Shown one piece after another: positions 14,332 to 32,152 of a stretch of 64,000 nucleotides of DNA. Under the pieces are notes generated by a model. That model was given only the letters and a program-made list of their open reading frames with translations. It did no database searches and was not told the DNA's origin. Numbering within the stretch: position 1 is the first letter of the stretch; each line of letters starts with the position of its first letter. The position numbers were made by a program, and so were the translations under genes. The stretch covers positions 1-64,000 of the forward strand of contig JAFGXV010000026.1 of NCBI GenBank assembly GCA_016936455.1, read 5' to 3'. Origin of the DNA: Desulfuromonadaceae bacterium. GTDB lineage: Bacteria > Desulfobacterota > Desulfuromonadia > Desulfuromonadales > Desulfuromonadaceae.

Positions 14332-15342
14332 CTAGCCCTGCTGCGCCAACCACTGGCGCAGACGTTCCATGCCCTCTTCGATGGAGATGCGCGGTGCATA
14401 GCCGAGATCGCGTTTGGCGGCGCTGATGTCAAACCAGTGCGCCGTGGTCAGCTCGCGCGCCAGAAAGCGGGTCATGCGTGGTTCCTGTTGCTTGTTCAAG
14501 ACGCGGTAAGCGATTTCCAATATGGTGCCGGCGGCGTAGGCCACGGCAGCGGGAATGCTGCGGGTGACGGGGGGCACGTTCCCGGCGGCAAGGATGGCAT
14601 TGACGATGTCCCACAGTGGACGCGGATCGTCCTGGGAGATGAAGTAGGCCTTACCGGCACAGGGGGCGCCCAGGGCCAGGCGCTGGGCGGCCAGGAGATG
14701 GGCGTCAACGGCGTTGTCAATGTAGATGGTGTCGACGCAGTGGTCATGTCGGCCGATGCGGCGCAGTTGCCCGGCCCGGCCACGTTCGAGAATGCGCGGT
14801 ACCAGATGGTTGTCGCCCGGCCCCCAGATCAGGTGCGGTCGCAGAGCCACGGTAGCCAGGCTGCTGTTGTTGGCAGCGAGAATTTTCTGTTCGGCGAGGG
14901 CCTTGGTGCGCGGGTAGGGTGCATGGAAGTGGTCGGGGTAAGGCACGGATTCGTTCACCCCTTCCATGGAACGGCCGTTGAACACCACGCTGGGTGAACT
15001 GGTGTAGACCAGCCGGGTAATGCCATGATGGCGGCAGGCGGCAATGACGTTTTCGCTGCCCGTGACATTGGCGCGTTCGTAGGCAGCCTCGTCGCCCCAC
15101 ACTCCGGCCTTGGCCGCCACATGGAACACCAGATCGCAGCCGCTGAAAGCTTTCTTGATGGCCTCGGAGTCGGCGAGATCCGCGCTGATCTGTTCCACCC
15201 CCAGTTCATCCAGCGCCGGATAGCGCGAGCGCGACAGGCTGACGACAGTCAGCCCCTGTTCAACCAGCTTGCGGGTCAGGGCCAGACCGAGGAAGCCGCC
15301 GCCGCCCGTAACCAGAACCCTGTTGGCCGTGACGCGGATCAT
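14332..15342 (-). CDS. oleD: OleD, NAD(P)H-dependent 2-alkyl-3-ketoalkanoate reductase
   Basis: This 336-residue extended short-chain dehydrogenase has the N-terminal Rossmann motif TGGGGFLG (residues 12-19), a YTSSPSVVF strand and the catalytic YPRTK (YxxxK). In the Ole pathway it reduces the 2-alkyl-3-ketoacid made by OleA to the 2-alkyl-3-hydroxyacid that OleC uses. It overlaps oleC by four bases (ATGA), indicating translational coupling. Similarity to 3-beta-hydroxysteroid dehydrogenases is the usual annotation, but the oleA-B-C context decides the call. Confidence 0.93.
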   Translation of the reverse strand: MIRVTANRVLVTGGGGFLGLALTRKLVEQGLTVVSLSRSRYPALDELGVEQISADLADSEAIKKAFSGCDLVFHVAAKAGVWGDEAAYERANVTGSENVIAACRHHGITRLVYTSSPSVVFNGRSMEGVNESVPYPDHFHAPYPRTKALAEQKILAANNSSLATVALRPHLIWGPGDNHLVPRILERGRAGQLRRIGRHDHCVDTIYIDNAVDAHLLAAQRLALGAPCAGKAYFISQDDPRPLWDIVNAILAAGNVPPVTRSIPAAVAYAAGTILEIAYRVLNKQQEPRMTRFLARELTTAHWFDISAAKRDLGYAPRISIEEGMERLRQWLAQQG

Positions 15343-17063
15343 GACCTGGTCCTTTCAAAAGCGAAAAGGCTGGAGCGATGAAGCTGCTTTTCAGCCCACA
15401 GCGACAGTTTTTCGCGGAAGATCTTGGCATTGTGGCGGATGTCGACGGGAAAACGCGGGTGGAACAGGAACGCGCTGATGGCTTGTGTGTGCGGAAATTG
15501 CCGCTGAATCGCCTGCAGTTCAGCGATGATCGCGGGTTTTCGACTCCGGTTGACACCGGGATTCAGTTCGATGCACAGTACCGCCTGACGTTGCGCACGT
15601 GCGCCGCAGCCGACCAGGGCGGTGCGGAACACGTCAGGGTGAGTATTGAACACGGCTTCGCAGGGGATCGTAAACAAGGTGTTGTTGCCGATTTCGACGC
15701 GGTGTGCCTTGCGGCCGCAGAACCACAATCGTCCCTGGTCATCGAAATAACCGACATCGCCCATGCGGTGGTAAAAGCCGCCGTCAGCGCAGGGGACCTT
15801 GGCCAGTGCCGTCGCTTCGGGTTTGGCATCGTAGGCGCGGGTTACTTGCGGTCCGCGCACGCAGATTTCACCGATGGCACACACTGCTGATTTCGGCGCC
15901 TGCTCCCAGTTGGCGATGGGCCCGTCCTCAATGGCAATCACCTGCACATCGAGTCCGGCTACAGGGCGGCCGACGCAGATGCCCCGGCCCTGATCGGTCA
16001 GTGTGCGGGTCTGCCGCAGGATTTCATGGCTGCCGATGGAACAGACAGGCAACGATTCGGTGGCGCCGTAGGGGGTGAAAATCTGGGTGTCGTGCGGCAG
16101 TAGTGTACTCAGTTCTTCCAGCACCGTGGCCGGTACCGGTGCGCCCGCCGAGATGACCCGTTTGAGGGAGGCCAGCCGGGGACGACAGGTGTCGGGATAA
16201 TGATGGCCGTAGGCGGTCAGGCGGCGCAGCAGGGCCGGGGAGCCGAACAGGTTGTGGATGGTGAAGTTGTCCAGCGCTTCAAAGATGCGTTCGGGATTGA
16301 CCTGGCCCGGACGGGTGGCGTCCATGTCCGGCACTACGGCGGTCATGCCCAGAGCCGGAGCGAACAGGGCAAACAGCGGGAAGGTGCACAGATCGTACTC
16401 GCCGGGCTGGATCTGATACAGGCCCTTCAGGGCCGAGATCTGGGCGTTGAAGTTGGCGTGGCTGTAACAGGCTCCCTTGGGCGAACCGGTGCTGCCGCTG
16501 GTGAACAGGATGGCGGCCAGAGTGGTGTCATCCGCTGCAAAACAGGGATAAGGACCGAGCTGCGGGCTGGCGGCGAGCACCGTGGTCAGGCTGTCGGTGC
16601 CAAGCAGCGGCAGGGAAAAAAGAGCCGAGCCGGTGCTGATGCGGCAGCGCAGGGTTTGTTTGCCCCAGCCCAGCAGCAGCCGCGCCAGGTGAGCTTTGGG
16701 AATGCCGATAAAGGCTTCGGGAGCGACCTCGCTCAGGCAGGTGCGAATATTTTTTACTCCCATCCCGGGGTCGATGAGAATGGGGATGGCGCCAACCTTG
16801 AACAGGGCAAAGGTCAGGGCAAAGAATTCCAGGCCTGGCTTGACCATCAGAACTGTCCGGGTGCCGGCTCCGATTCCCTGTCGCGCAAGGACCCAGGCCA
16901 GACGATCGCTTTCCCCATCCAGCTGACGGTAATTCAGATGGGTATAACTGACATGACCATAACGGTCGCGCCCCTGAGGGCAGATGACAGCTTGGACCTC
17001 CGGCTGGCGGCGGGCCCGGTCAGTAAGACTTAGAGCGATGTTGGCGTGGTTTTCTGTGGTCAT
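15339..17063 (-). CDS. oleC: OleC, beta-lactone synthetase (AMP-binding family)
   Basis: This 574-residue member of the acyl-CoA synthetase superfamily has the ATP-binding P-loop FTSGSTGSPKG (about 187-197), the adenylate motif YGATE and the YHRMGDVGYFDDQGRLWFCG hinge region. In the Ole pathway it uses ATP to turn the 2-alkyl-3-hydroxyacid into a cis-beta-lactone, which OleB then decarboxylates. AGGA lies before ATG 17063. The order here, oleA-oleB-oleC-oleD, matches the classical cluster with separate oleB and oleC rather than the actinobacterial oleBC fusion. Confidence 0.93.
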   Translation of the reverse strand: MTTENHANIALSLTDRARRQPEVQAVICPQGRDRYGHVSYTHLNYRQLDGESDRLAWVLARQGIGAGTRTVLMVKPGLEFFALTFALFKVGAIPILIDPGMGVKNIRTCLSEVAPEAFIGIPKAHLARLLLGWGKQTLRCRISTGSALFSLPLLGTDSLTTVLAASPQLGPYPCFAADDTTLAAILFTSGSTGSPKGACYSHANFNAQISALKGLYQIQPGEYDLCTFPLFALFAPALGMTAVVPDMDATRPGQVNPERIFEALDNFTIHNLFGSPALLRRLTAYGHHYPDTCRPRLASLKRVISAGAPVPATVLEELSTLLPHDTQIFTPYGATESLPVCSIGSHEILRQTRTLTDQGRGICVGRPVAGLDVQVIAIEDGPIANWEQAPKSAVCAIGEICVRGPQVTRAYDAKPEATALAKVPCADGGFYHRMGDVGYFDDQGRLWFCGRKAHRVEIGNNTLFTIPCEAVFNTHPDVFRTALVGCGARAQRQAVLCIELNPGVNRSRKPAIIAELQAIQRQFPHTQAISAFLFHPRFPVDIRHNAKIFREKLSLWAEKQLHRSSLFAFERTRS

Positions 17064-17220: not shown

Positions 17221-18102
17221 CTAACCCTGATCGCAGACAAAATCCTGAATCAGGGGCACGATCTCATCCGAGGCATCTTCCAGAATGTAATGGCCGCCGT
17301 CCGGCCAGGTATGAATCCGGGCACTGGGAAAGCGTTTTTTCCATTCGGCCAGAAAATGGCGGTCGAAGACAAAGTCCTTTTCCCCCCACAGAATCAGCAT
17401 GGGTTTGTCTTTCAACCGGTGAAGGCTGTCGGCCACGCGGTTGACCTCGGTCCAGGCGGGGTCACCCTGTTTGAGGGGGATATCCTGAACGAAGCGCAGG
17501 GTGGCGATGCGATTGCGCCAGCTGTTGTAGGGCGCGGTGTAGGCGCAGCGCAAAGCGCGTGGCATCGGGCGTTGTTTGCAGCCGATCCACGAGGCTGCAA
17601 GGCTGAAGGCATTGAAGCCTCTCACCAGGAAGGACCCAACGGGGGTGTCACGGCAGATTTTCAGCGCCAGCGGCAACGGTTTGGTCGCCGGCAAGGGAAA
17701 TGCCCCGGTGTTGAGGATGACCAGTTTCTGGATGCGTTCGGGGTAGCGCGTGGCGTAGGCCATGCCGATCATGCCGCCCCAGTCATGCACCACCAGGGTC
17801 ATCTTTTGCTGGATGCCCAGGTGGTCGAGCAGTTCCTCCAGATCGGCCACGCGCTGGCTGAGGGAATAGGTATAGGCGTTATCTTCGGGCTTGTCGGACA
17901 GGCCGCAGCCGATATGATCGGGCACGATCACGCGCTGGCTGGGGCGCAGTGCCAGCAGCAGGTGACGATAATAGAAGGACCAGCTCGGGTTGCCGTGCAG
18001 CATCACGACCGGTTCGCCCTGGCCTTCATCCAGATAATGATAATGTGCGCCGTGGCTCAGTTGCAGAAACCGGCCATGACAGGGTAGCAGTCGTTTCACC
18101 AT
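17221..18102 (-). CDS. oleB: OleB, beta-lactone decarboxylase (alpha/beta hydrolase)
   Basis: This 293-residue alpha/beta hydrolase of the haloalkane dehalogenase type has the oxyanion motif LHGNPSWSF (35-43), nucleophile D107 in VVHDWGG and catalytic histidine H271 in PDGGHYILED. An Asp nucleophile in an ole cluster marks OleB, which releases CO2 from the beta-lactone to give the cis-olefin. Its ATG overlaps the end of oleA (ATGGTGA). A 157-base gap separates it from oleC, and I found no clear promoter or terminator in that gap. Confidence 0.92.
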   Translation of the reverse strand: MVKRLLPCHGRFLQLSHGAHYHYLDEGQGEPVVMLHGNPSWSFYYRHLLLALRPSQRVIVPDHIGCGLSDKPEDNAYTYSLSQRVADLEELLDHLGIQQKMTLVVHDWGGMIGMAYATRYPERIQKLVILNTGAFPLPATKPLPLALKICRDTPVGSFLVRGFNAFSLAASWIGCKQRPMPRALRCAYTAPYNSWRNRIATLRFVQDIPLKQGDPAWTEVNRVADSLHRLKDKPMLILWGEKDFVFDRHFLAEWKKRFPSARIHTWPDGGHYILEDASDEIVPLIQDFVCDQG

Positions 18103-19139
18103 TCCACTCCCAGCATCATGCAGTTGAGACCGCTGCCGATCCCCAGAAAAGCGACCTTCTGTCCTTGCTCCAACAGCCCACGCTCATCAGCAATGGCCGC
18201 AGTAATCGGCAGCGATACCGTGCCGATATTGCCCAGGAAGCTGAAGGTGGTGAAATCCTTTTCAACGGGGATAGCCAGACTGGTGAGAATCTCTTTTTGA
18301 TGGGCCGACCCGACCTGATGGCAGACGACCCGATCCACTGCGTCGGTTTGCCACTGTAGCCGGGCAAGAAAACGTTGCCAGGTCTGCTTGCCCAACGCGA
18401 CGCCGTTGTGCATGACCGCCACGGCATCGGTGCTCATGAACTGCTCGAACCGGTCTGCATCCAGATTTTTCAGCCCCCAGCGGCAGAGTTCGTGATGTTG
18501 CGGCGCACTCTGTGCCGCACCGCCGAGCAAGCGGTGCTGTTCTTCAATGTCGAAGGATCCGTCTGTCAGAATCAGTGCCACCGCACCCGACCCGCCGGTC
18601 AGGGTGGCCACGGAGCGGACAAAAAACGCCATTTCCTTGCGGGCTAGCAGACGACGGATAACGGTTTCATTCAGTTCGCGCGCACTTTCGCACGACACGA
18701 CCATGCCGGCACGGATCTGACCGAGTTCGATACGGTTGGCGATGTCGAGAATGCCGTTGAGGACGCCGAGACAGGCGTTGCTGATGTCGTAGATCAACGC
18801 GTCACCGCCGATCCCCAGACCGTCCGCCACGCGGCAGGCGGTGGCCGGCTCAAACAGTTCTCGGCAGACACTGGTATAGACCAGAGCGCCGATATCCTGT
18901 GGCGCCATGCCGCTGGCGTTCAGCGCCTTGCGGCCGGCAGCAATGGCTCCCTGGGACAGGGGCATGCCCGGCTGCCACCAGCGCCGTTCGCGAATGCCGG
19001 TCAGGGCTTCGAGCTGCCCCGGCTGGATATGCAATGCCTGGTAAAGGGGGGCCAGCTGTTGTTCCAGGTCGCTGGAACGGACGACCACCGGCGGCAGTTC
19101 GTAATGGATGCTGTGCAGGTAAACGTTGCGATAAATCAT
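18096..19139 (-). CDS. oleA: OleA, acyl-CoA head-to-head condensing enzyme (thiolase fold)
   Basis: This 347-residue FabH-like thiolase-superfamily enzyme carries the triad Cys123 (SNACLG), a histidine in VVCHQVGSAH and an asparagine in LGNIGT. The SVCRELFEPATACR block holds a glutamate at the position family members use from the partner subunit. OleA joins two fatty acyl thioesters in a non-decarboxylative Claisen reaction to give a 2-alkyl-3-ketoacid, the first step of long-chain olefin synthesis. ATG 19139 is preferred over TTG 19142. A 36-base gap separates it from the upstream unknown gene, and it overlaps oleB. Confidence 0.93.
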   Translation of the reverse strand: MIYRNVYLHSIHYELPPVVVRSSDLEQQLAPLYQALHIQPGQLEALTGIRERRWWQPGMPLSQGAIAAGRKALNASGMAPQDIGALVYTSVCRELFEPATACRVADGLGIGGDALIYDISNACLGVLNGILDIANRIELGQIRAGMVVSCESARELNETVIRRLLARKEMAFFVRSVATLTGGSGAVALILTDGSFDIEEQHRLLGGAAQSAPQHHELCRWGLKNLDADRFEQFMSTDAVAVMHNGVALGKQTWQRFLARLQWQTDAVDRVVCHQVGSAHQKEILTSLAIPVEKDFTTFSFLGNIGTVSLPITAAIADERGLLEQGQKVAFLGIGSGLNCMMLGVEW

Positions 19140-19178
19140 CAAAAGAAGTCTTGAGTCGGTCCAGTCGAATCCGACAGA

Positions 19179-19550
19179 TTACGGATTCTGCAGGTAGTTC
19201 ATGACAATCTGGCGACCGCCGGAATTGAGCCAGCGCGTGCCCACGGCGAGGGTGCGCTGTTCGCGCAACTTTGCGTAAAACGTTTTATAGCAGCTGGCGG
19301 CGCGGCGTGTTTCATCAGCGCTCCAGCGGTCGTTCGGGTAGATATGGAGCTTTTCCAGCAGTTGCTGATCGCTTTTTGCCTGCGGCAGGCACAGACTGTA
19401 TTCGATCGCCCACTCCAGCAGGCCGGGACGGCTTGCGCTGGCGTAGTGGATATCCTGTCCCTTATGCAACATGGGCACGGACAACCTGTTTTCCTTGAGG
19501 ATGGCCCGCGCCAGGATGAAGATGGCTTTTTGATCAGGGGTGACCAGCAT
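19179..19550 (-). CDS. Unknown protein at the head of the ole operon
   Basis: I do not recognise this 123-residue soluble protein. It looks mostly helical, with a C-terminal block FYAKLREQRTLAVGTRWLNSGGRQIVMNYL. The open frame reaches 19697, but ATG 19550 is the best start, with AGGAGG about 11 bases and GGAGA 3-4 bases upstream. It ends 36 bases before oleA on the same strand, so it is probably the first gene of the ole transcript. A regulatory or accessory role is possible but has no sequence support. Confidence 0.6.
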   Translation of the reverse strand: MLVTPDQKAIFILARAILKENRLSVPMLHKGQDIHYASASRPGLLEWAIEYSLCLPQAKSDQQLLEKLHIYPNDRWSADETRRAASCYKTFYAKLREQRTLAVGTRWLNSGGRQIVMNYLQNP

Positions 19551-19777
19551 GCTCTCCAGTTCCTCCTGCCCGGTGATTCGGCGATGGTTTAAAATACACG
19601 GCCCCAAAGCGCAAGGCAATGGCACGCATATTGTCAGAAACCCTTTCTTGGTGCAAGAAAATAGCGGGGAATAAATATTTCCGTCGTCTTTGAGCATCCT
19701 GTCTGTTGCCGGAGGCGGGTGTTTTTTGTTAGGTTAGCGCGTTACCGGTTGGGCGGGAAACTAAAGGAGAACAGACC

Positions 19778-20584
19778 ATGCAATGGTTCGCTTATCTGAT
19801 CTGGGGAGGCCTCGGTCTCTGTGTGTTGCTGGCGGCGGCTTTGATCCTTTATCAGCGCTTTTATCCGCAACAGGATGTGAGTTCGGTTGAGGTGGAAACG
19901 GGCGCGGTGGAAACGGGGATCGCCTCTTTCCTGGTGCCACCCCAGCGGCGCAAACGGCTGATCGATGTATTCGAACTGCACAGCCTGTCCTTGCCGCAGG
20001 ACGATGAAGATTTTTGCCTGTGGGCCGAGGATATGCTCGGTGTCCAGCGCACCTGGCTGCTCGGTGAAGACTGCCCCATGTTCCCGTTGTTGACTTTTCA
20101 TAACCGGATTGCGGAGAGTTTTGGATTTTTTCGGGCATTGCGCCAGTCTTATAAAACGGTGCGCCTGTACGTCGTTCGGCCTGAAGGAATTCAGTTGGAC
20201 GAGGAGCTGTTCGATGCCTGCGCTGTCCTCTGTTTTGCCGTGGCAGTGGAAGAGCAGGGACAACAGCTCTGGCGGTACTACCCCATGAATGTGTACTGGG
20301 AGTGGGGGTATGCGCCGGAACGCATCCAGTGCAGCCAGATGATTTATATCGCCAGCCGGGCGAAATTCGATGTTGTCGGCCTGGAACTGGAGCAGGGGGA
20401 TCTGTTCGATCTGCTGGAAGGAAGGCGGATTCCTAAAGGTCTGTTGCATGCGGCAGCCGGCAGCTGGGATCCGCTGCCGCTGGCCAGTGCCGGAGAGGTG
20501 GTCCCCGGCTGCGATGCTTTTTTGCTGTCGCCACAGGAGCTGGATGAGCGATTAAAGCAGGAAGACTGGATTAAGCCTGTTTGA
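19778..20584 (+). CDS. Unknown protein with one N-terminal membrane anchor
   Basis: I do not recognise this 268-residue protein. It has a single hydrophobic helix at residues 4-25, followed by a cytoplasmic or periplasmic domain rich in acidic and aromatic residues (WAEDMLGVQRTWLLGED, YPMNVYWEWGYAPER). The start is well supported by AAAGGAG before ATG 19778. It is divergent from the ole operon, and its last 14 bases overlap the end of the convergent PilZ gene. A sigma-54-like TGGCAC-N5-TTGTC lies at 19620-19635 upstream. Confidence 0.7.
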   Translation: MQWFAYLIWGGLGLCVLLAAALILYQRFYPQQDVSSVEVETGAVETGIASFLVPPQRRKRLIDVFELHSLSLPQDDEDFCLWAEDMLGVQRTWLLGEDCPMFPLLTFHNRIAESFGFFRALRQSYKTVRLYVVRPEGIQLDEELFDACAVLCFAVAVEEQGQQLWRYYPMNVYWEWGYAPERIQCSQMIYIASRAKFDVVGLELEQGDLFDLLEGRRIPKGLLHAAAGSWDPLPLASAGEVVPGCDAFLLSPQELDERLKQEDWIKPV

Positions 20585-21065: not shown

Positions 21066-21758
21066 TTGAATAGTCTGGTTGTCGCATCGACTCGTCTGGA
21101 TCAGTATGAAAGACTGTTTCAGGATAAGGTTCTGATGGAAACGCTACTCCATCGCGTGGCGCCCGATGTCAGGCAGCGGGTCGAACGCTATCGCCGTCCA
21201 TTGCCGGCTCTGCAGACTCTGTTTGGTCGTCTGTTGCTCGATGCTGTGTTGTTCTGGCGGGGGTTCCGGCTGACGAGCTCTGATCTTGTGTTGTCAGAAA
21301 ACGGCAAACCCTATTTTGTCGAGGGGCCGTCCGTCAGTGTGGCACACAGTGGTGAGTTTGTTCTGTGCGCTCTGGTTCATCAGGGAGCTGTCGGCCTGGA
21401 TGTTGAAGAAAAGCGCTTTATCGCTCCAGATACGCTGAGTGCGGTTTGGACGGAAGAAGAGCGTCGGGAGCTCCGGCAGGGGTCTGACACCTCGACCGTT
21501 TTGTCCCGCTGGACGGCGAAGGAATGTCTGGTGAAAATGACGGGAGAGGGTTTCCGCTTCCCTCTGAATCGAATCGATCCCGGTCTGTTGTCGGTCCTGA
21601 ATCAATTTGATTGTGCTGCCTTGCTGCAGTTGCAACTTGAAGGAAATGCGCTGGCAAGTATCGCAACCACATTTTGTGTACGTCGGATCGAACAAGTCCG
21701 ATTTTCTGTGCAGCAACTGCTTGAGTTTGAAGGCGATTTTTCTCGGTTTAAAAAATAA
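21066..21758 (+). CDS. 4'-phosphopantetheinyl transferase superfamily protein
   Basis: This 230-residue Sfp/Gsp-type enzyme has the Mg/CoA site GLDVEE (D112, E114) and WTAKECLVK (W149, K152, E153, K157), plus the upstream SVAHSGEFV block. It transfers phosphopantetheine from CoA to acyl or peptidyl carrier proteins of secondary-lipid, polyketide or peptide synthases. TTG 21066 is the likely start, with GGAG about eight bases upstream; the next in-frame ATG is 23 codons in. Its place between the ole operon and the PfaC-like synthase suggests it activates the carrier protein that serves that synthase, which is not in this window. Confidence 0.88.
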
Positions 21759-21935: not shown

Positions 21936-22013
21936 GCGCCTATCGTCTAGCCCGGTCTAGGACACCGCCCTTTCACGGCGGCGACAGGGGTTCGAATCCC
22001 CTTGGGCGTACCA
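21936..22013 (+). tRNA. tRNA-Glu (TTC)
   Basis: The anticodon loop CTTTCAC gives TTC. The GTCTAG D-arm and CAGGGGTTCGAATCCCC T-arm are typical of tRNA-Glu. The acceptor stem GCGCCTA/TGGGCGT has G-U pairs, and CCA is encoded (22011-22013). It lies 40 bases after tRNA-Gln on the same transcript. Confidence 0.95.
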
Positions 22014-22018
22014 CTTTT

Positions 22019-22050
22019 AAAAGCGAAGTCCTCACCGGCTTCGCTTTTTC
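22019..22050 (+). terminator. Rho-independent terminator of the tRNA pair
   Basis: AAAAGCGAAG and CTTCGCTTTT form a 10-bp stem with a ten-base loop and a T-rich end, six bases after the tRNA-Glu CCA. Confidence 0.88.
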
Positions 22051-22092
22051 TGTTTTGGCTGAAAGCCGTTGCGCTGGAAGACTGTGTTGCCC

Positions 22093-23118
22093 ATGGCGAA
22101 TACTCCCCGATTCCTTGATAAGCTGGTGAATATGACCTCCATGCACGATCTGGAGCTCATGGAGTACAGCCTGTTGAAGACCATTGAGGAGTTTATCCAT
22201 CCCCATCAACTGCTTATTCTGCGGTTCGACAGAAACGGTCAACCAACCTATCGTGCCAGTCTGAAAAAGGGTCAGTACGAAATTGTCTGGGAAGATATTC
22301 ACGTCCCGGATGAAATCAACACAGCCGTTGAAATTGTCAGTACAACCAAGCGCCCGTTCAGTCGCCATGTAGATCATGACAAGATGTTGACCGTCTGGCA
22401 CGTGCTGCAACCCAAAGGCCAGGAAGTCTTCCTGGTTACACAAACCAAAAGCCGACTGAACAACCTTGATACCCATATGGTTAACGGCCTGCTGGGGGTG
22501 TATCGCAATTTTTACGCTGTCCTGAGTGAATCCCAGCGCGACGGACTCACCGGATTGCCCAACCGCAAGACCTTCGAAGAAACTATCAATAAAATCTACT
22601 TTGAACATTCTCTCCCGACCGAAGATGTTGTCATTAACCGCAGAGTTCAACTCGGGGAAGATGACAAGTGTTACTGGCTCGGCATGGCCGATATCGATTA
22701 TTTCAAACGCATCAACGATACCTGGGGCCATTTATATGGTGACGAAGTTCTGCTGCTGATCTCCCAGCTCATGCAGTCCCATTTCAGAGCCAACGACTAT
22801 CTGTTTCGCTATGGAGGAGAAGAGTTTGTCATTATCCTCTGCGCTCCTGACCTTGACCATGCCAGAAGAGCCTTTGAACGCTTTCGCGTAGCCGTGCAGG
22901 AATACCGGTTTCCTCAGGTTGGACAGATCACCATGAGTATCGGCAGCATCAAAATGGATCCCCACATCTTCACTACCACGCTTTTGGATTATGCCGACAA
23001 AGCTCTTTACTATGCGAAAAACAACGGGCGCAACCAGGTCAGTTTTTACGACGAACTGTTGCAGCACGGTCTGCTGGAAGAACAAAAGATTGTTACCGGA
23101 GAGATAGAACTGTTCTGA
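22093..23118 (+). CDS. GGDEF diguanylate cyclase with product-inhibition site
   Basis: This 341-residue cytoplasmic protein has a GAF-like but unassigned N-terminal region (about 1-150) and a complete GGDEF domain. The active site is GGEEF at 241-245. An RxxD inhibitory site lies at R232-D235, exactly five residues before it, so the enzyme should make cyclic-di-GMP under feedback control. DGLTGLPNR near 160 marks the domain start. An insert (INRRVQLGEDDKCYW) in the first third of the domain is longer than usual. ATG 22093 is preferred over the in-frame TTG 22069. It is followed 28 bases later by an unknown gene on the same strand. Confidence 0.92.
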   Translation: MANTPRFLDKLVNMTSMHDLELMEYSLLKTIEEFIHPHQLLILRFDRNGQPTYRASLKKGQYEIVWEDIHVPDEINTAVEIVSTTKRPFSRHVDHDKMLTVWHVLQPKGQEVFLVTQTKSRLNNLDTHMVNGLLGVYRNFYAVLSESQRDGLTGLPNRKTFEETINKIYFEHSLPTEDVVINRRVQLGEDDKCYWLGMADIDYFKRINDTWGHLYGDEVLLLISQLMQSHFRANDYLFRYGGEEFVIILCAPDLDHARRAFERFRVAVQEYRFPQVGQITMSIGSIKMDPHIFTTTLLDYADKALYYAKNNGRNQVSFYDELLQHGLLEEQKIVTGEIELF

Positions 23119-24754: not shown

Positions 24755-25228
24755 TCAGCGTGCGTGGCAGGCGCGACATTTGCTCGGACCACTGCCGGAA
24801 TTGATATGGCAGCTGCGGCAGGTGGCGTGAAACTGCTTCTTCGTCAGTTCGATCTTGCCCGGTGGGGTTGTCGGGTGGCAGGTGGCGCAGCTCATCTTTT
24901 CCGCATGGTTCATGTGGTTGAACTGAACGTCGCCGAAATTGTTTTTCAGCAGAATGGCATAGATCGCGGTCGCCTCGGGTGTCGGGGTGCCAACGTTGGC
25001 GAGGGCCGCCTGGGTGGCCGAGCTTGCCGGGCTTATGGCCGGCTCCGTGGCAACCGCTTCAGCTGCTGGAGCTTTTTCTGCCTCTTCGGTTACGACTTGG
25101 TCAACCTGCTGTTTCTGCTGCTGGACGGCACTCAGGGCCTTGCCGAGCGAGAACGCACCCGCAGGTTCTGTTGCCCACGCAGACAGGGGAATCAGCAGCA
25201 TCAGGGTCATCAACAATAAGCGATACAT
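24755..25228 (-). CDS. Periplasmic triheme c7-type cytochrome
   Basis: This 157-residue protein has a signal peptide cleaved near residue 19 (SAWA), an alanine-, glutamine- and glutamate-rich spacer (about 20-90) and a compact c7 heme domain. The heme sites are CATCH (114-118), CRSCH (137-141) and CRACH (151-155). H105, H108 and H134 are likely distal ligands (FNHMNH motif). Such proteins carry electrons across the periplasm in Geobacter and Desulfuromonas relatives, where c7 is normally only about 70-75 residues long after cleavage. The long low-complexity spacer is unusual. AAGGAGG lies six bases before the ATG. Confidence 0.9.
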   Translation of the reverse strand: MYRLLLMTLMLLIPLSAWATEPAGAFSLGKALSAVQQQKQQVDQVVTEEAEKAPAAEAVATEPAISPASSATQAALANVGTPTPEATAIYAILLKNNFGDVQFNHMNHAEKMSCATCHPTTPPGKIELTKKQFHATCRSCHINSGSGPSKCRACHAR

Positions 25229-25354: not shown

Positions 25355-28300
25355 TCAGAATCGCCATTGCAAGGTGAAATCCTTCATGCGGTAAATGGTT
25401 TTACCATCGACGTGCAGATAACCGTCGGCGGTGATTTGATGGCTGCTGTCATCGACGGCCGTGACCACCGCTTCGACGCTGACCTGTCCGTTGCTCGGCA
25501 CCACCTGACCGCGGTAGCTCCAGCTGTGGGGAACGTCCAGGGCCATCACCTGGAACGGTTGGTCTCCCACGTGGGTTGTGGCGTTGCTCCAGCGCTCATT
25601 GGCGATGAATTTGAGCAGCTGCAGGAAGGATTCCAGCCCCAGCGACCCAGGGCAGACCGGGTCCTGATAGAAATGGGCCCGGAAAAACCACTCGTCGGGA
25701 TCCACCTGCTTGACCGCCCGGATAAAACCGAGCCTGTTGGGGCCGCCGTCGGCGTAGTAGAGCTCAATCTCATCGAGCATGCGCAGCTGACGGTCCGGGA
25801 AGGGGGGCTGCTGCGGATAACGCAGGCACTGTGATCGTTGCTGCTCGGCTGTTGTCGGCTGGTAGGGGTTGGCATCGCGCAGTCCGATCTGGTTGGCCAG
25901 GGCCGCTTCGGTGAAAAAGCCGAACACGGTATCGCCCTCATACACGATCCCCTGCGCGTCATGGACGGCAAAACTGTAGCTCTGGATGATCATGCCGCCG
26001 CTGCTCGATACCCGGGTCAGTTCTACCCGGGTGGTGAGGGTGCCGCTGTCTCGGGTGACGGGCCGGTGAAGGACGGCGTTGCCGTCGAGGTTGCGGAAGC
26101 ACAGATCGATATCGCTGGTCAGGGCGGACCCGACGTAGGCGGCCAGCCATCCGCAGGGTTGCAGGGCGATTTCCAGCAGGACGCTGAACGGCATGCGCTC
26201 GGAGCGTTCCTGGGCGAAATACCATTCATCGGGCGGCACGTCGTACTGGGCCTCGATGCGGCCGCCTGCCACCATCTTCCAGGGTTCGGCCTGGATGGCG
26301 GTGATGCGGTCGAGGAACTGGAACGGCGGGCGTGGCAGGCGGGCAATGCGCCGTTTCTGGTCAAAAATCCGGTAGGGCTCGCCAAAGGCTTCGGACGGAT
26401 TGCCATTGGAAAAGGCCAGAATCCGGTCGTAATCGAACATTGCGGGTTTTTTGGCTTGGGCAACGGCTTGGACGGTGGGAACAGAAGCGAAGGTCTGTTG
26501 TTGCCAGCGCTGCTCCAGGATTTCGCGGGGCAGGTTGGTCAATTGCACCGACATGCTGGTGATTTCGACGATGGGTTTGCCGTCGGCATACATCAGGGCA
26601 TCAACAATGGCAAAGGGCGCCGGCCGGTAGCCCAGTTCTTTGAGGGTGACCTCGTAGGTGACGGTGCGGGTGCTCTCCGTGACCTGGCCGCGGCACTTGA
26701 GCTGACTGTCGATACCGGGTACCGGCTCCCACACCGTTTCGCCCTGATCCGTCACCCAGCCCATGCGCATTAGGTAGATACGGAGCGTGTGCAGGCAGCA
26801 TTCGTACATCAGGGTGCCGGGCATGACATGATCGTCGCAGAAATGGCAGGTGAGGAACCAGTCGTCGGGCTGCACATCCATTTCGGCGCGGATCTGTCCC
26901 ATGCCGTAGCGTCCGGCGGTGGGATCGAGATGGGTGACACGGTCCACCAGTTCCAGATGGCCACTGGGCAGGGTGTACGGCTTTTTCAGGCCCAGAGCGC
27001 TGAAACGCGGGCCGAAGCAGCTGGCCAGATCGCCCTGTCGCAGCGCCCGGATCTGTCCGGCATCATAGCGTTCAATGGCCATGGGCACCAGTTCGCGCCA
27101 GTCGTCCGGTTTAATGCCGGGTTGGGGCATGCGATCAAAGGCGGTGTGGACGATGCCTTTGCCCGCCTCGAGTTCGGCCTGGGTGAAGAACCCGGCGCAG
27201 CCGTCGCGCATGGTCATCAGGGGACGACCGCCGACGGTGCTGTCGAACTCGAAGCGGAACAGCCAGGTGTCGCCCTGACGGAAGAAGTGTTTGACCCGGA
27301 TGTCGTAACGGATGACATCGCCGGGCTGGGGCAGGGGGCCGTGGAACTGGACCACGGCGTCAAGCAGGCGGTAGACTGCCAGACCCCTGGTCTGGAAGTC
27401 GATACCGAGCCAGCCGGATAAAAAGAGGTCAGCTTGGCCGGCCTCGACGGCAACGCAGGTCGGGATGCGGTTGCCGTCCAGATACCAGCGATCCGGCGTG
27501 ACGTCGTGCTCGGTGATGACGCGGCCCGAGCCCATGGAGCCGGGCTCGCCCTCAAGCTGCATGATGCGATCGACCAGCATCAGCGGTTCATCGGGCAGGC
27601 GCACGCGTGTCGGGTGGTGGTCGATGGGGGCGAACTGCTCACCCAGCATACGGCCGATGGAGCCAATGGCGAATTCCATACACTGTTCGCGATCGAATAG
27701 CGGCTTTGGCTGTGGTGCGGGTACTGCTCGTTGCGCAGTGGGCGCCACCGCTGTTGCCGACGCCGGGGGCTTGTCCCCTGCGGGCCGCTGCTCTGGGGGC
27801 AAAGCGGCGATGAGCTGCTGTTGCAGATTCAGGTTGCTGGCCATCAGCTGTTCGATTTGCTGTTGCAACTGCAGGAAGCGGGCATGGGCCGCATTCTGAT
27901 GCTGCTGCGTCTGACTCAGGCTGTCCATCAGCGGATCAGCCAGGGGCTGCGGCACTGAAGGTGGGCAGGGCGCTTCGGTCGGGGGGGACATGAGCGGTGC
28001 CGTTGGCGCACCGGCGGTGACCGGCATGGGAGGCTGTGGCGGCGCTTTCAGCGCGGGACGGCCGTTGTTCAGGGTCAGACGATGACCGGGGCTGGTCACG
28101 GCGGAGGCCGCTGCCGGCTCCGGCGCGAACAGCGGGCTCAGATCACAGTCCACGCCCTCGGCCGTCAGCTGGGCCAGCAGGCGGGTAAAGCTGGCCAGTG
28201 TCGGTTGGCCATCGACACAGGTCGGCAGGGCCAGATGGGGTGAATCCTTGAGAATCTGGCCGATCATGCGTGAACAGGAATTGCCGCTGCCCGTTTCGAT

Positions 28301-31300
28301 GAACAGGCGTGCTCCGGCCGCGTACGCGTTGCGGATGACGCGGGTGAAGTCGATGGTATCGACGGCCTGGGACAGAATCGCCTGGGCGCAGTTTTCCGTG
28401 GTCGGGCGGTAGCTGGCCCCCGTGGCGCAGCTGAACAGTTGCAGCCCCTCGCGCGGATGGGTCGGGAACAGGTGCAGGTCGTGATAGGCCTTTTTCACCA
28501 TCGTTGGTACGGGGCAGTGGACCGTGGTGACGCCCTTGAGCTCGATGAAGGGGCAGCGTTTGGGCTGGGACAGGGTCTCGACCACCTGTTCTACAGCGCG
28601 GCGCTGACCACCGATGATGCACTCGTCCGGGGTGTTGATAATCAGCAGGTAGGCGCGCTCCAGTCCCTTCAGGGCCTCGCGTACGGTGGCGGCGGGGCGT
28701 GGAACCAGACCCAGGCACCAGTCCACCTCCTCGTTTTCCGGCAGCTGCCACAGCTGGCGCGCGGCGTCGCAGGCGTTGGCCAGCTGGCGGGTGAACAGCG
28801 GTGAGGCCTCAATGCGCTGGAGCATTTCATCGCGCTGTTGCCAGATGCCGAGGGAGAACAGGCTGGAGGATTCGCCGAGGCTGTAGCCGATGGCCATCTC
28901 AGGTTGGACGCCGAACTGGCGCACCGTATCGCTCAGGGCCGTGCACAGGGCGACATGGGCGATGATCATGGCGTTGTGGTCCTGCTCGATCTGCGTCAGC
29001 GCCACGCCGTCCCAGAACATGCGCGATTGGTACTGATCCGCCAGCCGTTGGTTGTGCTGGTGCTGAGCCTCGAACACCGCGGGCCAGCTCAGCCCGAGGT
29101 CGCGGCCCATATCGGGAAAATGATTGCCGGAGCCGGGAAAAACAAAGGCAATCTTGCCATCCCGAGCGATGGGGTCCGGGCTGTAGAAGATCTTATTGCG
29201 GGCACAGGCCGGCAGTTCGAGACCACGACCGTCGAGGCGCTGTTGCGGCTGTTGTTGTAGCTGGCAGCAGGCGAAGTTTAGCTGCTCGCGCAGTTCCTCC
29301 AGCGAGTCACTGACCAGAGCCAGACGCCGTTCGCCACGGGCTGCGGGCGTGCCCTCATTGTTGAGCCAGTTCTGCGCCAGGTGGCGGATGGTGGTCGGGT
29401 GCTGGCTGGTCAGCCATTGCTGCAGTTGTTGCAGCGCTCCGAGCAGTTCGTCCGCAGTGTTCCCCTGTACAACAAACAGACCAGGGCCGACAGGATCGAG
29501 GGGCAGGGCGGCGGGCAGGGGCTGGGAGGGTTCTTCGCTCAGAGCTACCAGATGGCACAGTCCCCCCGTGGCCTGACCGCTGACCAGGGCGCGACGCGGG
29601 CCGTCCTGTGCATTGTGCAGCCAGTAGCGTTCGCTATGCGTTTCGCCCCGGGGCAGGATGCGATGATGCAGAGCCAGGGCCGCTGTGGCTACCGCGATCA
29701 GCCCGCTGGCTTCGCCGGCAGCTCCGAGCTGGCGCTCTATCCGACTGGTGCGTTGATGCGTTTGATCCTGTGCGGACGCAAGACCGCTATGCGTCTGAAG
29801 ACCGAAAGTGGTAGGACTGCCTGCGGGTAGCGAGAACTGCTGGCGCAGGGCCTGTTCTGCCCGCAGCCGCGTGTCCCTTTGAACCTGAAGCAGGTCATCG
29901 CTGGCGCCGCTGGTGCTGGCCTGTCCTTCAATGAGGGCGTAGATGCGGTTGCCGTCACGGCGGGCCGCGGAAAGGGGTTTGAGCACCAGGGCGCAGGCCC
30001 CGTCACTGACCGTTTCATGACGACCCAGACGCTGGTTACTCAACTGGGCGCGCACGTCCCCGGGCATGTCCACGGCACCGACCAGCGCCAGATCGATCTC
30101 GCTTCGGCGCAGAGCGTCAACGGCGGTCTGCAGCGCCTGCAAGCCGGAGTTTTCTTCGCACGCCAGGGTAAAACTCGGACCGCCGAAACGAAAGGCGCGG
30201 GCGATGCGGCTGGCCACGACGCTGCCCAATGCTCCCATGGTGCGGTTGGCGGTGAGGGGCGGGCTGAGCCGGTCTCGCAGCTGGCTGGTCCAGTGGTCGT
30301 CATCAACGGTTGTGGCGTCGATCAGGCCCTGCTGTTGCCACGCGCGCAGCAGGCCAGGCAGGCGCCAGCGCAGGCTGAAGGAGGTGGCATTGAGGTCGAG
30401 ACCGGTACCGACAAAGACACCGCTGCGCTGATGGTTGCCATCCGCAGCCCCGGCTTCGTCCAGAGCGGCTTCGGCACACAGCAGCATCAGGGCCTGGCGC
30501 GGCAGCATTTCGGCTATCTCTGTTGGCGGAATGCGGAATTTCCCGGCCGGGAGCTGAAGTTGTTCCAGGTAATGGCCCGGACATGGCTGGTAGCCGTCCT
30601 GATGCCACCAGCGGCTGTCTGCAGCACCACCCCAGTGGGCGGGCAGGCTGGACTGGCTGGAGACGTCGCCACCGAGACATTGGGCGCGGAATGCCGCGCG
30701 TTGCTGCCAGGGGCCAAGGCGCACATCGACGCCGACAATCGCTATGGGTTCGCAGGCCGCGTCAGGGACGGCGTCTGTCTGGTGAGCCGTTTCGACCGGC
30801 AGCCACTCCTGCAGTAGTAGGTGGGCGTTGATGCCACCGAAGCCAAAGGCGCTGACCGCAGCCCGTCGGGGCTGATTGGCGCTGCGACGTTCCCAGGTGC
30901 GGGGCTGTTGCAGCACCTCGAACGGGCTCTGCTCCAAACCCAGTTCCTTGCTTGACTGGCGAAAGTTGGCGGTGGGCGGCAGGGTTTGGTGTTTCAGGGC
31001 CAGCAGGGTTTTGATCAGGGCCGCGGAACCGGCGGCGGTGAGCAGATGGCCGATATTGGATTTGACGGAACCGAGGATGCAGCCTGGGGTCTGTTCCTGT
31101 TTGAAGGACCCGTCAGACCATAATTGTTTGAGGCTGCTGAATTCAACGGCATCGCCCACCGGGGTGCCGGTGGCATGGCATTCGATATGATCAACGTCCT
31201 GCGGGGTCCAGCCGGCCTCGGCATAGGCGGCCCGCATGGCCCTGAGCTGGCCCTCGGACATGGGAGCCAGCAGGCTGCCGCCGATGTCGTTGGACAAGCC

Positions 31301-32152
31301 GATTCCTTCAATGGTGGCGTAGATGTGGTCGCCATCGCGTACGGCATCGCAGGTGCGCTTCAGCAGCACCACCCCCGCACCTTCGCCGACCACGAGACCG
31401 TCGCCTCTGGCATCAAATGGAGAACAAGTGCCGGTGGGCGACAGGGCCCGCAGCTGGGAAAAACCCATCTGGGTGTAGAGCGAGTCGGGACGGGCGACGC
31501 CGCCAGCCAGCATGGCATCGGCCCGACCACTGCGCAGTTCCTCGACGGCCAGCTTGATGGCATAGAGCGAGGAAGCACAGGCCGCATCGAGGGTGAAGCA
31601 GCTGCCGCCAAGGCCGAGGGCTTTGGCCAGAACGGCGGCCGGCAGACCGGTCATGAAGCGATTGCGGCGGTCTGTGCCCGAGTCCGCCGGAGGTTGAGGC
31701 AAAAACTGTTCGTACAGGGTCCGGCCGAGGTAATCTTGGGCCAGTTGCGAGGTGGTGACGCTGGGCAGGGCCAGGTTGCCGACGATCACGCCAATGCGCT
31801 GACGTTCGGTCGGGACGAGGCGGGTATCGAAAAAAGCCTGGCTGCCAGCGTGCAGCAACAGCTGAAACAGCGGATCGAGCCGTTGCGCCAGATCCTGCTC
31901 GATGTGCAGCCGGTCGTAGGCCAGGGGTGGCAGGGCCATATCCACGAAGCAGGCCTTGCGCGAATAGACGTGGTCGATGCGACCTTTTTCCGGATGATAG
32001 ACCTGGTCGAGGGGGACACTCCAGCGGTCGGTGGGCGGCTCGGTGGCCGCGTTGTGCCCGCGCAGGATAAGTTGCCAGAAGGATTCGGGATCGTGCGCCT
32101 GAGGAAAGACACCGCCAATGCCGACGATGGCGATCGAGGAAGAAAATGTCAT
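25355..32152 (-). CDS. PfaC-like secondary-lipid synthase: KS-CLF-AT-DH-DH
   Basis: This single 2265-residue protein has a ketosynthase (about 1-450; C192, H326, H369) and a chain-length-factor-like KS (about 468-870) in which the active cysteine is replaced (LACEENSG). An acyltransferase follows (about 1000-1330; S1091 in GYSLGES, H1212). After a Pro/Gln-rich linker come two FabA-like double-hotdog dehydratases (about 1490-1890 and 1905-2265), with catalytic HFCDDHVMPG near 1770 and HFYQDPVCPG near 2160. This resembles PfaC of polyunsaturated-fatty-acid synthases, and the AT insertion resembles myxobacterial Pfa3. No ACP, ketoreductase or enoyl reductase is present, so partners must act in trans. 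The start ATG has only a weak ribosome binding site. The product is unknown. Confidence 0.9.
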   Translation of the reverse strand: MTFSSSIAIVGIGGVFPQAHDPESFWQLILRGHNAATEPPTDRWSVPLDQVYHPEKGRIDHVYSRKACFVDMALPPLAYDRLHIEQDLAQRLDPLFQLLLHAGSQAFFDTRLVPTERQRIGVIVGNLALPSVTTSQLAQDYLGRTLYEQFLPQPPADSGTDRRNRFMTGLPAAVLAKALGLGGSCFTLDAACASSLYAIKLAVEELRSGRADAMLAGGVARPDSLYTQMGFSQLRALSPTGTCSPFDARGDGLVVGEGAGVVLLKRTCDAVRDGDHIYATIEGIGLSNDIGGSLLAPMSEGQLRAMRAAYAEAGWTPQDVDHIECHATGTPVGDAVEFSSLKQLWSDGSFKQEQTPGCILGSVKSNIGHLLTAAGSAALIKTLLALKHQTLPPTANFRQSSKELGLEQSPFEVLQQPRTWERRSANQPRRAAVSAFGFGGINAHLLLQEWLPVETAHQTDAVPDAACEPIAIVGVDVRLGPWQQRAAFRAQCLGGDVSSQSSLPAHWGGAADSRWWHQDGYQPCPGHYLEQLQLPAGKFRIPPTEIAEMLPRQALMLLCAEAALDEAGAADGNHQRSGVFVGTGLDLNATSFSLRWRLPGLLRAWQQQGLIDATTVDDDHWTSQLRDRLSPPLTANRTMGALGSVVASRIARAFRFGGPSFTLACEENSGLQALQTAVDALRRSEIDLALVGAVDMPGDVRAQLSNQRLGRHETVSDGACALVLKPLSAARRDGNRIYALIEGQASTSGASDDLLQVQRDTRLRAEQALRQQFSLPAGSPTTFGLQTHSGLASAQDQTHQRTSRIERQLGAAGEASGLIAVATAALALHHRILPRGETHSERYWLHNAQDGPRRALVSGQATGGLCHLVALSEEPSQPLPAALPLDPVGPGLFVVQGNTADELLGALQQLQQWLTSQHPTTIRHLAQNWLNNEGTPAARGERRLALVSDSLEELREQLNFACCQLQQQPQQRLDGRGLELPACARNKIFYSPDPIARDGKIAFVFPGSGNHFPDMGRDLGLSWPAVFEAQHQHNQRLADQYQSRMFWDGVALTQIEQDHNAMIIAHVALCTALSDTVRQFGVQPEMAIGYSLGESSSLFSLGIWQQRDEMLQRIEASPLFTRQLANACDAARQLWQLPENEEVDWCLGLVPRPAATVREALKGLERAYLLIINTPDECIIGGQRRAVEQVVETLSQPKRCPFIELKGVTTVHCPVPTMVKKAYHDLHLFPTHPREGLQLFSCATGASYRPTTENCAQAILSQAVDTIDFTRVIRNAYAAGARLFIETGSGNSCSRMIGQILKDSPHLALPTCVDGQPTLASFTRLLAQLTAEGVDCDLSPLFAPEPAAASAVTSPGHRLTLNNGRPALKAPPQPPMPVTAGAPTAPLMSPPTEAPCPPSVPQPLADPLMDSLSQTQQHQNAAHARFLQLQQQIEQLMASNLNLQQQLIAALPPEQRPAGDKPPASATAVAPTAQRAVPAPQPKPLFDREQCMEFAIGSIGRMLGEQFAPIDHHPTRVRLPDEPLMLVDRIMQLEGEPGSMGSGRVITEHDVTPDRWYLDGNRIPTCVAVEAGQADLFLSGWLGIDFQTRGLAVYRLLDAVVQFHGPLPQPGDVIRYDIRVKHFFRQGDTWLFRFEFDSTVGGRPLMTMRDGCAGFFTQAELEAGKGIVHTAFDRMPQPGIKPDDWRELVPMAIERYDAGQIRALRQGDLASCFGPRFSALGLKKPYTLPSGHLELVDRVTHLDPTAGRYGMGQIRAEMDVQPDDWFLTCHFCDDHVMPGTLMYECCLHTLRIYLMRMGWVTDQGETVWEPVPGIDSQLKCRGQVTESTRTVTYEVTLKELGYRPAPFAIVDALMYADGKPIVEITSMSVQLTNLPREILEQRWQQQTFASVPTVQAVAQAKKPAMFDYDRILAFSNGNPSEAFGEPYRIFDQKRRIARLPRPPFQFLDRITAIQAEPWKMVAGGRIEAQYDVPPDEWYFAQERSERMPFSVLLEIALQPCGWLAAYVGSALTSDIDLCFRNLDGNAVLHRPVTRDSGTLTTRVELTRVSSSGGMIIQSYSFAVHDAQGIVYEGDTVFGFFTEAALANQIGLRDANPYQPTTAEQQRSQCLRYPQQPPFPDRQLRMLDEIELYYADGGPNRLGFIRAVKQVDPDEWFFRAHFYQDPVCPGSLGLESFLQLLKFIANERWSNATTHVGDQPFQVMALDVPHSWSYRGQVVPSNGQVSVEAVVTAVDDSSHQITADGYLHVDGKTIYRMKDFTLQWRF

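Follow-up and report, generated by a model that had tools for sequence, protein, structure and literature searches.

We wanted to establish whether a 2265-residue megasynthase, encoded on the minus strand at positions 25355-32152 of a 64,000-nucleotide stretch of Desulfuromonadaceae DNA (hereafter the window), stands alone or belongs to a known lipid pathway. A first-pass annotation had described it as an orphan, PfaC-like protein with an internal AT that must work on a carrier protein supplied in trans, possibly even the ACP of the fatty-acid synthase, and had suggested that it may represent a distinct class of secondary-lipid synthase. We conclude that the gene very probably encodes PfaBC, the second of the elongating and dehydrating subunits in a Type I Pfa (PUFA-type) synthase that feeds an Ole hydrocarbon pathway, and that the megasynthase is an unremarkable example of a known synthase kind and not a distinct class.

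The gene is a single, intact open frame, and a Pfam search of its product detected two ketoacyl-synthase (KS) N-terminal domains, an AT (31.6 bits, slightly below the cut-off of 32.7) and four FabA hotdog stretches. From its N terminus, the protein comprises the KS (residues about 5-455), a chain-length factor (CLF; about 466-900), a PfaB-type AT (about 994-1345), a linker rich in Pro, Ala and Gln (about 1346-1490) and the four hotdogs, which make up two dehydratases (about 1491-2265); no ACP, KR or ER domain was found within the polypeptide. The catalytic positions were read from an alignment of PfaBC with ten relatives and the solved KS-CLF of Moritella PfaC (6riw). The KS has C192 in LDAACASS, H326 in ECHATGTP and H369 in KSNIGHLL, and the serine motif of the AT is GYSLGES, at residue 1089. 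The CLF has LACEENSG where the corresponding segment of Moritella PfaC is VSAEENSV, the EENS motif being common to both. Pfam and the alignment therefore confirm the domain anatomy given in the first-pass annotation, including an AT inside a PfaC-like protein. Full-length homologues that are 59-65% identical to PfaBC occur in other members of the family.

In a maximum-likelihood tree of KS and CLF domains, the KS of PfaBC fell within the PfaC-KS clade (support 99/99) and its CLF within the CLF clade (support 100/100); both clades include Moritella PfaC and lie apart from the PfaA KS, which bears out the PfaC-like identity of the protein. A PDB search returned 6riw (E 3e-123, residues 6-710) as the best solved relative when the whole protein was compared, and Shewanella baltica PfaB (9ry8, E 1e-29) for the AT. 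The AT scored 119 bits against the NCBIfam model pfaB_fam, below its cut-off of 144.3, and 56 bits against fabD; GYSxG is reported as the motif of PfaB and GHSxG as that of malonyl transferases (PMC12895367). Because the AT is closest to PfaB and the KS and CLF lie in the PfaC clades, we conclude that the protein is a PfaB-PfaC fusion. Fusions of this kind are on record for Type I as well as for several other types of Pfa synthase (PMC3098273). The Moritella and Shewanella proteins (Types A and B) provide the closest solved KS-CLF and AT relatives, but there PfaB and PfaC are two proteins and here they are fused into one. The Type D pfaBC of Bacteroidota and myxobacterial Pfa3 likewise have their AT in a PfaC-like protein, the Type D order being KS-CLF-AT-DH2 (PMC3098273). 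A Persicobacter homologue can be aligned from end to end but is only 28% identical, and its KS lies in another subclade. We rejected the heterocyst-glycolipid HglC type (Type F), which is defined by a KS-CLF-AT protein without DH domains (PMC3098273), because PfaBC has four FabA hotdogs.

Type I synthases have been described in Geobacter bemidjiensis, Desulfuromonas acetoxidans and Pelobacter propionicus (Shulse and Allen 2011, PMC3098273). Our assignment to this type draws on domain architecture, ole linkage and the published taxon range (PMC3098273), the named members being compared by description. In common with Type I, we find a pfaBC fusion with an AT, PfaA and PfaD in the family, and linked ole genes; the locus differs in that pfaBC lies 77.5 kb from pfaA and in that the box of the phosphopantetheinyl transferase (PPTase) is unlike the one reported for Type I.

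We then consider the carrier protein. An ACP search of the organism's own assembly, which is 79% complete, found five ACPs. At the very end of the contig that carries the window (C54), a 955-residue frame on the minus strand (C54:109661-112525) encodes an ACP, a KR and a DH of the PKS type. It corresponds to the C-terminal portion of the TIGR02813 PfaA model and is cut by the contig end within the tandem ACP repeat. This PfaA remnant, 77.5 kb upstream of pfaBC on the same contig and strand, provides the likely cognate ACP and, with a PPTase and oleABCD in the window, indicates that the megasynthase is no orphan at the scale of the genome. The proposal of a carrier in trans stands in so far as PfaBC contains no ACP, but the fatty-acid-synthase ACP need not be invoked, the ACPs of PfaA being available. 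Neither the N-terminal (KS-MAT) half of PfaA nor PfaD was found in the 79%-complete assembly, and it is here that our argument is weakest. A same-genus genome (G001) likewise has its PfaA divided between two contig ends, and a complete PfaA (KS-MAT-tandem ACP-KR) is present in another relative (G003). PfaD is present in 13 of the 13 other genomes of the family and, judging from characterised relatives, is probably present in this organism as well. Overall, the phylogeny places KS and CLF with PfaC, and the partners have largely been located elsewhere in the genome, with PfaD and the N-terminal half of PfaA missing from the incomplete assembly; hence the reading as a distinct class fails, the more so as the Type I pfaBC architecture is already published. 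This strikes out a candidate new class and illustrates how a megasynthase that looks like an orphan can belong to a known pathway whose parts are scattered. Further KS and AT matches at C54:67-71 kb were considered as PfaA and rejected; the ORF layout is that of an ordinary fab cluster, which we take the order plsX-fabH-fabD-fabG-acpP-fabF to identify, and acpP was confirmed (C54:69080-69283). This AcpP, the housekeeping ACP, is encoded by the ACP gene nearest to pfaBC. We also note further small KS genes and stand-alone ACPs on contigs C49 and C6 (L010 and L011), perhaps parts of aryl-polyene-like or other type II clusters.

Downstream of pfaBC and on the same strand, the window contains all four ole genes in the order A-B-C-D. 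OleA (18096-19142), the head-to-head condensing thiolase, was identified by Pfam, by NCBIfam NF006720 and by solved OleA structures (3row, 4ku2 and others; E about 1e-51). The oleB-like gene (17221-18102) encodes an alpha/beta hydrolase with haloalkane-dehalogenase-type NCBIfam matches in addition to its Pfam match, and was assigned through its fold and its position between oleA and oleC, which is conserved in relatives. The oleC-like olefin beta-lactone synthetase (15339-17063) scored 662 bits against OlefBLtnSynShew and the oleD-like 2-alkyl-3-oxoalkanoate reductase (14332-15342) 462 bits against oxyalk_red_OleD, below strict cut-offs of 850 and 580, respectively, that come from Shewanella/Xanthomonas-specific models; OleA, OleC and OleD match their own families. 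Gene set and order are those of the OleABCD head-to-head hydrocarbon pathway, for which the substrate specificity here is a prediction. Directly upstream of oleA on the minus strand is a conserved gene of 172 codons (19179-19697), the product of which has no Pfam or NCBIfam match; homologues 42-45% identical occupy the same place in six relatives (G001, G003, G005, G007, G009 and G010). We also observed a plus-strand gene for a 268-residue protein (19778-20584) without a significant Pfam match, which has family homologues (36-42% identical) upstream of oleA. A minus-strand ORF at 19742-20449 was discarded as a shadow of this overlapping gene, as was another at 21973-22731, which shadows a plus-strand gene.

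Between the ole genes and pfaBC, on the plus strand, lies a gene for an Sfp-type PPTase (21066-21758), a candidate PfaE recognized by Pfam and, in the search of the 79%-complete assembly, the only PPTase found besides AcpS; an ole-adjacent PPTase in G042 is a weak homologue (32% identity). The box of the window PPTase reads PSVSVAHSG, which departs from the (F/S)NxSH reported for Type I; the hShxH form is assigned to Types M-T (PMC3098273), and we note that VSVAHS resembles the latter.

The arrangement of these genes varies across the order. In other families, pfaD, pfaA and the AT-containing pfaC are contiguous: G014 has a 4-bp overlap between pfaA and pfaC, and G042 has a single same-direction run of pfaD-pfaA-pfaBC-oleA-B-C-D-PPTase, an order that agrees with the published one of G. 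bemidjiensis except that pfaB is listed separately there (PMC4882568). The window genome has no such single pfa cluster, 77.5 kb lying between pfaBC and pfaA. In G003, G005 and G009 the gap between pfaBC and pfaDA is about 101, 119 and 84 kb, respectively, and the relative orientation varies. We regard this separation as a matter of gene order and not as a difference in the enzyme. The distance from pfaC to the downstream oleABCD genes is about 3 to 11 kb in the window and in G003, G005, G007, G009 and G010. The ole genes are on a different contig from pfaC in G001, share a contig with pfaDA in G012, and are unlinked from pfa in G014 and G018.

Among 46 good relative genomes, OleA and PfaD occurred together in 23 and were both absent from the other 23 (Fisher p 1.2e-13); counted per genus, both were present in 12, Ole only in 1, Pfa only in 1 and neither in 21 (p 2e-7), counts and p values that ignore shared ancestry. 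Type I pfaBC fusions are known to co-occur with ole genes, G. bemidjiensis makes the hydrocarbon C31:9 (PMC3098273, PMC4882568), and in Shewanella OleA ties Pfa to hydrocarbon (PMC6463001). That Pfa and Ole are found together across the order lends support to the proposal, already in the literature, that hydrocarbon synthesis is what Type I Pfa synthases serve. By analogy with characterised relatives, on which each catalytic step below is modelled, the PfaE-type PPTase would activate the tandem ACPs of PfaA, which would also contribute KS, malonyl transferase and KR activities; the KS-CLF of PfaBC would elongate the chain, its hotdog dehydratases would dehydrate or isomerise, and PfaD would reduce selected double bonds. 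The PfaB-type AT is expected to work on the long acyl chain. The polyunsaturated chains would then pass to OleA-OleD, encoded adjacent, where head-to-head joining of two chains would give a long polyunsaturated hydrocarbon. Given the co-occurrence, the published finding of C31:9 in G. bemidjiensis and the connection between OleA and Pfa in Shewanella, a polyunsaturated C31 hydrocarbon is the likeliest product, most likely C31:9 itself.

Alternatively, the main product of the same synthase might be a polyunsaturated fatty acid for the membrane, as it is in Shewanella or Moritella, and Ole would use Pfa chains only in part or never. In marine gammaproteobacteria, many of which have ole, the same subunits do produce EPA or DHA (PMC6463001), and the unlinked ole genes of G014 and G018 would fit. 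We nevertheless consider this unlikely: Pfa and Ole are either both present or both absent in 46 of 46 good genomes, contiguous pfa-ole runs occur in several families, and C31:9 has been found in G. bemidjiensis. It is less probable still that relocation of pfaBC away from pfaDA allows its amount to be set separately, so that chain length or degree of unsaturation shifts between membrane fatty acid and Ole hydrocarbon, and yields a product other than C31:9.

That PfaBC is a true orphan partnering AcpP seems hardly credible; AcpP is on the same contig and its gene is the closest ACP gene to pfaBC, but the genome holds the tandem-ACP remnant of PfaA, and PfaD is found in every good genome with OleA. 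We give equally little credence to pfaBC being a decaying, functionless leftover of a broken pfa cluster. Its distance of 77-120 kb from pfaDA in the window genome, G003, G005 and G009 could be read in this way, but the frame is intact with all motifs kept, full-length homologues persist in the family at 59-65% identity, and pfaD is retained in 13/13 genomes.

With a hydrocarbon-directed Type I synthase as the preferred reading, the only detail that is possibly new is the gap of some 80-120 kb between pfaBC and pfaDA in this family, of which a non-exhaustive literature search found no discussion. Further, we note a plus-strand GGDEF diguanylate-cyclase gene (22069-23118) between the ole cluster and pfaBC, and a minus-strand gene for a small c7-type cytochrome-like protein (24755-25228) that follows pfaBC throughout the family. 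Finally, a Sumerlaeota metagenome-assembled genome (L041, 7067-20050) encodes a full-length relative of PfaBC (46% identity) followed on the same strand by oleA, oleB and oleC, and linkage of pfa to ole thus exists in another phylum.
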